A stretch of DNA of 64,000 nt, taken from Eubacteriales bacterium. Its GTDB lineage: Bacteria > Bacillota > Clostridia > Lachnospirales > Lachnospiraceae. Location of the stretch: the NCBI GenBank assembly GCA_030524175.1, contig JAUNHC010000013.1, positions 1 through 64,000 of the forward strand, given 5' to 3'. Shown here piece by piece: positions 1,350-1,467 of the stretch. The notes under the pieces are model-generated. The model was not told the origin of the DNA, did no database searches, and saw only the letters and a list, made by a program, of their open reading frames with translations. The position numbers and the translations under genes are program-made. Every line of letters starts with the position of its first letter. The stretch's first letter is position 1.

Positions 1350-1404
1350 AATTAAAAATTTCCTTTCTGTATGCAGTGTGTTATTCTGGAACAAATATGA
1401 TGCA

Positions 1405-1467
1405 TCAACAGCACATTCGCCCGTTCCGGAAATTTTCTCTCAACAATTTGCGAAATAAAATATTCAT
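1405..1467 (-). CDS. Leader peptide MNILFRKLLRENFRNGRMCC upstream of metY
   Basis: A 20-codon reading frame begins with ATG at 1467, five bases after a perfect AAGGAGG (1473-1479), and ends with TGC TGT TGA, i.e. Cys-Cys-stop. It lies in the leader of a sulfur-assimilation gene. Codons 11-14 contain AAAATTTCC (1428-1436), complementary over nine bases to GGAAATTTT (1355-1363), which includes the metY ribosome site. This is seen in sequence; the inference is that ribosome stalling at the Cys codons changes access to the metY start. No T-rich intrinsic terminator is visible between the two, so a translational mechanism is more likely than transcription attenuation. Confidence 0.6.
   Translation of the reverse strand: MNILFRKLLRENFRNGRMCC

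Follow-up and report, generated by a model that had tools for sequence, protein, structure and literature searches.

The window (the whole stretch of 64,000 nucleotides that was analysed) encodes, at positions 42–1349 of the minus strand, on which all features given below also lie, a 435-residue enzyme of the O-acetylhomoserine/O-acetylserine sulfhydrylase family (MetY), which matches the NCBIfam model TIGR01326, covering enzymes that make homocysteine or cysteine, with 625.4 bits (cut-off 495.1). Upstream of metY lies a putative leader peptide frame (MNILFRKLLRENFRNGRMCC followed by a stop; 1405–1467) of 20 sense codons, which begins with ATG at 1465–1467 and is preceded, at a spacing of 5 nt, by the Shine-Dalgarno sequence AGGAGG (1473–1478). 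It ends with TGC TGT (codons 19–20, Cys-Cys; 1408–1413) and TGA (1405–1407), which confirms the 20-codon frame with a full ribosome site described in an earlier reading made from the letters alone (hereafter the sequence-only reading). The frame is of type A, as defined below, and its codons 17–18 (1414–1419) are CGA-AUG, encoding the Arg-Met pair that is the invariant core of the family. The distance to metY is 55 nt from the leader stop and 70 nt from the CGA.

The interval 1355–1467 singled out in that reading extends from the metY ribosome site up to the leader start. Its proposal that codons 11–14 are complementary over nine bases to this site holds, with the anti-RBS GAAAATTTCC (1428–1437) pairing with GGAAATTTT (1355–1363) in the metY ribosome-binding region AGAAAGGAAATTTT (1355–1368), which in the model is sequestered by the anti-RBS. 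The fold of the whole leader RNA is uninformative, since its stability is ordinary (z -0.75; 47 of 200 shuffles fold equally well). The scan of positions 1300–1720 found no terminator-like site, in agreement with the claim that no T-rich terminator separates leader and metY, and thus the leader-gene intrinsic terminator exclusive with an antiterminator, typical of a trp-type transcription attenuator, is missing from the window.

A promoter-like element (TTGACA-17-TATTAT; 1527–1555) agrees with the consensus at 11 of 12 positions, and two such sites are found in the region, compared with 1.9 in shuffled sequences. Its -35 hexamer is overlain by an inverted-repeat operator-like element (CTATTGACATAGTAGG; 1543–1558) common to many metY promoters (present upstream of metY in 61 of 235 regions and never in 20 base-shuffling rounds), which is likely a repressor operator, the repressor being perhaps of the Rrf2 type. 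A second, degenerate copy of the inverted repeat (ACCTACTGATTAAGTATG) is present at 1501–1518. In Firmicutes, genes for methionine and cysteine are generally under the control of SAM riboswitches, T-boxes and repressors. The leader of the window resembles SAM riboswitches and T-boxes in the kinds of genes regulated and differs from them in matching no Rfam family. No Rfam match was found in the window, and among 20 leader loci the sole match above the cut-off is a GA-cis RNA located away from the leader, the rest being sub-threshold. SAM riboswitch and T-box were rejected as identities of the leader, since covariance-model matches to them above the cut-off are absent from the window and the 20 leader loci. 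Twenty metY regions without a called leader gave one tRNA and one sub-threshold cspA match, and 14 MetQ loci gave no Rfam match. In the genome of the window, none of the 150 candidates scored (of 395) is a SAM riboswitch, and the T-box model gave 13 matches, 8 of which are above the cut-off; C86, the contig that carries the window, has none of them. Six leader peptides were tried against NCBIfam and none matched.

Protein searches for relatives of MetY gave matches in 63 of 64 genomes of the genus, 394 of 397 of the family and 339 of 391 of the class, and the better matches provided 241 upstream regions, reduced to 235 by removal of near-duplicates. A Shine-Dalgarno sequence, an ATG and an in-frame CGA-ATG at codons 14–19 are found together in 60 of the 235 regions, compared with a mean of 0.53 regions for the other 60 XXX-ATG codon pairs enumerated equally. 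Under a looser ribosome-site rule, the leader is present in 91 of these non-redundant regions and absent from 144. A translatable short leader frame, as expected of an attenuator, is thus conserved upstream of orthologues, and the presence of the frame in many relatives, on which the sequence-only reading depended, is borne out. Among the 144 leaderless regions, at least four hold, by eye, degenerate versions or versions with other starts, one was lost to de-duplication and several are apparently behind cysK, again by eye. Five metY genes from the genus and family searches are at or above 80% identity, and the leader is present in three of them and absent from two; only one of the three bearers (L005) belongs to the class tested for RBS pairing, and in it the pairing of the window is present. 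In locus L384, a metY leader carries CGAATG out of frame, through sequencing error or decay.

The type A scan of contigs from named genomes revealed at least 120 stretches, and 79 of the 80 loci listed (L200–L279) gave a leader. Records among the listed loci are titled Lachnospiraceae, Oscillospiraceae, Ruminococcaceae, Christensenella, Faecalibacterium, Gemmiger, Butyricicoccus and Agathobaculum. Two Treponema MAG records (L212 and L239) are also among them and carry similar leaders of type A, which precede metY in one case and a URO-D family gene in the other; this suggests transfer or mis-binning. In the genome of the window, a loose pattern gave 17 matches, one of which is the metY leader, compared with 10 in the reversed control. 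The set of 160 leaders used for further comparison was picked by in-frame CGAATG and in part by the type A pattern, and neither CGA-ATG nor the type A core is a result within it because both are forced by this selection. The codon-pair enumeration above and the sets of 38 leaders and 55 frames described below are free of this constraint. Four leaders (L168_G131, L399_G825, L411_G669 and L229) were dropped by hand to give 156, and the short class comprises 103 leaders in the RBS pairing test and 102 in the opening-cost and Cys counts. Judged by these comparisons of sequence, this is a family of leader peptides in Clostridia, placed before metY, cysK, genes of methionine transporters and further genes that mostly relate to sulfur. 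The family is apparently unreported so far, as no description was found in open-licence papers (subscription papers lie outside that search).

With the amino acid core N-[FYCI]-R-x-G-R and near forms as the query and neither codon fixed, all 38 leaders found (not de-duplicated) have CGA followed by ATG. Frames with Arg-Met near Cys number 55 and contain CGA in 52 cases, and the three exceptions (two with non-ATG starts, all with weak ribosome sites) look spurious. In the 38 long ORFs of the window, CGA represents 21 of 738 Arg codons (2.8%). The Arg of Arg-Met is codon 17 in 107 of 156 leaders and codon 16 in 28. Type A contains by definition the motif N-[FYWC]-R-x-G-R-M or a near form (111 of 156 leaders); L-[LV]-R commonly precedes it, synonymous codons vary outside the forced CGA-ATG, and all six codons are used for Arg at other core positions. 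At variable positions before codon 17, 100 type A leaders contain one Met (17.9 expected) and five Cys (8.1 expected), and Met could be scarce there because it would create false starts. Two of the 156 leaders, L255 and L203, contain an additional in-frame CGA-AUG pair, and both end in Arg-Met-TGA.

Apart from the core Arg-Met, CGA is used for 30 of 49 Arg codons preceding Cys in the leaders, and for 27 of 33 once the fixed Arg located three codons before that core is also left out, compared with 14 of 101 Arg codons before other codons starting with T. In frames of at least 250 codons in the L200–L279 loci, CGA makes up 17 of 129 Arg codons that precede Cys, 14 of 154 that precede Met and 380 of the other 7732; the corresponding counts in the window genes are 0 of 2, 0 of 21 and 21 of 715. 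An incomplete tRNA list for the genome of the window (28 matches listed, 150 of 204 candidates scored) contains tRNA-Arg anticodons ACG, CCG and CCT, with neither TCG nor TCT seen in it. In the cited portions of two reports, tRNA-Arg(ICG) reads CGA (PMC3711424) and CGA-CGA pairs are inhibitory in yeast (PMC6301793). A function of CGA as a codon-level sensitiser before the sensing codon is a reasonable hypothesis in view of these reports and of the CGA bias before Cys. The sequences CGAAUG and CGAUGU may also act at the RNA level, or CGAATG through a trans factor. One fixed RNA helix around CGAATG was rejected as the cause of the invariance, as the pairings there differ between leaders.

In the 102 short-class leaders, Cys constitutes 36.5% of the residues within six codons past Arg-Met, compared with 1.35% of window-gene codons. 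Translation would stop right after Arg-Met (GRM followed by the stop) in 28 of the 102 (21 TGA, 7 TAA and no UAG), and 72 of the 74 leaders that continue contain Cys within six codons. Relative to CGA, Cys is found mainly at +2 (56) and +4 (30) in the short class, and mainly at -2 (31) and -1 (17) in the terminator class (n = 41). The leaders hold control codons from the pathway of the gene product, as attenuators do, AUG being invariant where unforced and Cys being enriched. The Cys codons look functional and placed according to architecture, yet optional and not the constant core, and Cys-Cys was rejected as a conserved core because the 28 leaders ending at Arg-Met do without it; for the same reason, the expected conservation of terminal Cys codons was not found across the short-class leaders. 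From the proposal of a cysteine sensor, the part retained is that the Cys codons look selected, by their frequency and by the shift in their placement, but the core is CGA-AUG (38 of 38) and methionine is at least as likely to be sensed.

Pairing with the ribosome site is a trait of the terminator-free leaders as a family, in support of the sequence-only reading. The mean energy between the gene RBS and the segment from -24 to +40 around CGA is -9.27 kcal/mol for matched pairs and -7.35 kcal/mol for permuted pairs (sd 0.19, z -10.1; 103 leaders, 5000 permutations), and the control segment from -48 to -24 gives little signal (z -1.1), kinship being handled in the permutation tests only via near-duplicate removal and this upstream segment. 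The pair in the window ranks 10 of 103 partners. As in translational attenuators of the ermC type, the gene RBS pairs in silico with a leader segment that a ribosome can cover, and the suggestion of translation-based control fits both this family trait and the terminator-free spacer. In a model in which a 30-nt ribosome is moved codon by codon over the leader, the mean cost of opening the RBS in the 102 leaders is predicted to be 3.95 kcal/mol in free RNA and to reach its minimum, 2.21 kcal/mol, when the P site is occupied by CGA. This minimum is shallow, since positions R-1 to R+3 lie within 0.25. The RBS is weakly folded in 28 of the 102 leaders, and in the 74 outside this group the cheapest stall place is scattered, being R-1 to R+1 in 10 and the far end tested (R+10) in 14.

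In the window, the modelled opening cost is 5.81 when free and 1.89, 1.73 and 6.06 with CGA17, AUG18 and UGC19, respectively, in the P site. AUG18 and UGC19 are thus the last effective codons and not the sole ones, because a P site anywhere from about codon 7 to 18 opens the RBS (0.91–2.46). The last effective P-site codon depends on the footprint, being CGA (-11), AUG in part (-12), AUG (-14) or UGC19 (-16). A ribosome waiting at AUG18 would free the metY site under all four footprints and one waiting at UGC19 under three (one of these in part), compared with one of four for UGU20 and none for the stop. Given these footprints, the leaders ending at Arg-Met and the invariance of CGA-AUG, a sensor of methionine, or of methionine plus cysteine, appears at least as likely as one of cysteine alone.

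A terminator was found by scan in 41 of the 160 leaders, with a distance from CGA to the gene of at least 145 nt in 40 of them and of 122 nt in one, and 12 leaders with at least 145 nt have no terminator. In the terminator model, which includes 37 leaders (L232, L262, L372_G590 and L364 were left out), the predicted terminator probability is 0.25–0.31 for P sites between R-10 and R-2, rises to 0.89–0.93 at R+1 to R+10 and is back to 0.38–0.63 at R+11 or beyond. With the ribosome at CGA it varies from 0.26 to 0.79 depending on the 3' edge assumed, the outcome being mostly OFF for an edge of +13 or +15, even at +12 and mostly ON at +9 or +11. Two antiterminator pairings prefer their own partner over permuted ones (z -7.2 and -4.5). 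One common methionine response in both classes was not retained, as it is rendered insecure by the dependence of the outcome at CGA on the footprint edge and by the drop in terminator probability at R+11 or beyond.

According to N-terminal motifs, the gene next to the 79 leaders among the listed loci is metY in 56 cases and another gene in 17, with no call in 6. Type B leaders, for which the search pattern itself required Cys codons, were found at 25 loci, 14 of which precede metY, and the reversed control pattern matched twice. The genes behind leaders include metY, a metY paralogue, MetQ-like and MetN-like genes and a relative of cystathionine synthase/lyase, several of the MetQ assignments being made by eye. 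Type B leaders also precede a cysteine synthase A gene above the cut-off and amino-acid binding proteins that match the cystine model below its cut-off. Most of the identified downstream genes concern sulfur; the exceptions or ambiguous cases are the URO-D family gene of L239, L265 (no Pfam match), the amino-acid permease of L194, and L175. A leader reading both Met and Cys codons would fit metY, because the enzymes covered by TIGR01326 make homocysteine or cysteine. MetQ at large is not assignable to leader control, since a scan starting from the gene found the leader in 2 of 20 fetched upstream regions and in none of the 30 loci of the best MetQ matches.

Several proteins encoded at these loci have unusual architectures or assignments. 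A family 3 amino-acid binding protein is fused to a MetQ (NlpA) domain behind the leaders of L225, L187 and L195, and may serve joint uptake of cystine and methionine. In the MetQ lipoproteins of L226 and of the matches in G570, G657, G584 and others, PF03180 is circularly permuted, with positions 96–234 followed by 1–96. The gene at positions 1734–3023 of L184, behind a type B leader, encodes a glycyl radical enzyme with (2S)-3-sulfopropanediol dehydratase as the best model (below the cut-off, in a cut locus), which suggests sulfonate use under shared leader control.

The ermC leader is a translational attenuator responding to macrolides. The leader of the window resembles it in having a short frame with its own ribosome site and a sequestered gene site that, in the model, is freed by a stalled ribosome, and differs in its signal, which is suggested to be charged Met or Cys tRNA, and in its CGA-AUG core. 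Mycobacterial polycysteine sORFs are reportedly leaderless, going by the title of a 2020 work by Canestrari. Those described in the cited portions of PMC9094748 and PMC13236596 are cysteine-responsive sORFs with Cys codons upstream of genes, a likeness shared by the present frame. The parallel drawn by the sequence-only reading therefore stands in logic but not in form, as the mycobacterial frames have a leaderless start and a Cys run, whereas the present frame has a strong Shine-Dalgarno sequence (AGGAGG, 5 nt from ATG), only two Cys codons and an Arg-Met core, and members of its family often have no Cys. The uORFC-8-2 element upstream of cysS in Rhodobacterales consists of a uORF, in which codons 14 and 15 usually form a Cys tandem, followed by a terminator that, according to the proposal, is relieved by ribosomes waiting for Cys-tRNA (PMC8632094). 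Its logic, as given in the portion cited, is close to that of type B terminator leaders. It belongs to another phylum and another gene, and the cited portion mentions neither a CGA-AUG core nor a translational version (PMC8632094); the window has metY, no terminator, and relatives titled Lachnospiraceae and other Clostridia. The hisS/hisZ leaders of Bacilli, described in the cited part of PMC2965389 as transcriptional ribosome-mediated attenuators with a stretch of His codons, are likewise Firmicutes examples and differ in codons, level of control and genes. That part calls ribosome-mediated attenuation new outside Proteobacteria and Actinobacteria, ermC apart (PMC2965389).

The reading that we favour, with slightly better than even confidence, is that the leader controls metY through ribosome-mediated attenuation of translation. 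A shortage of methionine and/or cysteine would then leave a ribosome waiting at AUG18 or UGC19, mask the anti-RBS and turn metY on. When the leader is finished and the ribosome has gone, the anti-RBS in codons 11–14 would cover the metY ribosome site. If too little charged Met-tRNA (codon 18) or Cys-tRNA (codon 19) is available, the ribosome would wait while its P site contains CGA17 or AUG18 and cover the anti-RBS, so that the metY site would open and the enzyme would be made. Placed just before the sensing codon, CGA is probably decoded by inosine wobble and may delay the reading of the next codon or render it more sensitive. In the terminator relatives, which keep the Arg-Met core, a ribosome waiting at the upstream Cys codons would favour the antiterminator. 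The family itself, the invariant CGA-AUG, the Cys placement, the RBS covariation and the antiterminator/terminator geometry are computed; we infer from the model that the ribosome stalls, on which signal, and in which direction metY would respond.

A sensor of cysteine only, in which the Cys codons do the sensing and CGA-AUG serves as a constant pause or spacer that carries no methionine signal, is rather unlikely. It would account for the Cys codons in 72 of 74 short leaders continuing past Arg-Met, for Cys at -2 and -1 of the terminator leaders, positions at which a waiting ribosome leads to antitermination in the model, and for the cysteine synthase A and amino-acid binding-protein genes behind type B leaders, though the pattern demanded Cys codons there. 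It does not explain the 28 of 102 short leaders that end at Arg-Met with no Cys after it, before metY and genes read as MetQ, nor the position of UGU20 and the stop in the window, which in the model are mostly too far downstream for RBS release. Stalling could instead be caused by the peptide, as in TnaC, which arrests in response to tryptophan; here the nascent L-[LV]-R-x-N-[FYW]-R-x-G-R-M would respond to a small molecule such as a sulfur metabolite, and the codons would be secondary. The 111 motif-defined type A leaders, with their varying synonymous codons and frequent L-[LV]-R, are consistent with this, as is the use of UGA in 21 of the 28 leaders ending at Arg-Met and of UAG in none, which suits termination arrest. 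Conserved nascent-chain residues near the putative stall site are found in part of the family, with N-[FYC]-R-x-G-R-M at the same place in 15 of 55 leaders whose selection (by Arg-Met near Cys) did not involve the motif. Other leaders without N-F-R-x-G still have CGA-AUG, however, and a peptide-only model leaves the choice of CGA, also before Cys codons, unaccounted for, which makes an arrest peptide improbable. Control by the promoter only, with a repressor on CTATTGACATAGTAGG and the leader as a relic without effect, is very improbable. The element lies over the -35 of the window and is absent from the shuffling rounds, but it coexists with the leader, as 31 of the 61 regions carrying it have both, and neither the invariance of CGA-AUG nor the RBS pairing is expected in a relic.

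Beyond translational attenuation of metY, a wider scheme is conceivable, which we put forward tentatively and hold to be rather doubtful as a whole. Throughout Clostridia, sulfur amino-acid control would place the rare CGA, read by inosine-adenine wobble, in the P site immediately ahead of a sensing codon, with CGA-AUG serving Met and CGA-UGU serving Cys. This would render the ribosome hypersensitive to slight decreases in tRNA charging, and one leader family would operate both translational and terminator switches. If attenuation by the leader is true, a large group of gut bacteria, including records of Faecalibacterium, Gemmiger, Butyricicoccus, Agathobaculum, Lachnospiraceae and Oscillospiraceae, runs metY by a leader peptide, and some of them also control methionine uptake, cysK and other sulfur genes in this way. 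Attenuators would be tuned at the level of codons by an invariant CGA ahead of the sensing codon, a device perhaps to be found elsewhere, and the leader would provide a simple signature for sulfur-regulated genes in uncultured Clostridia.
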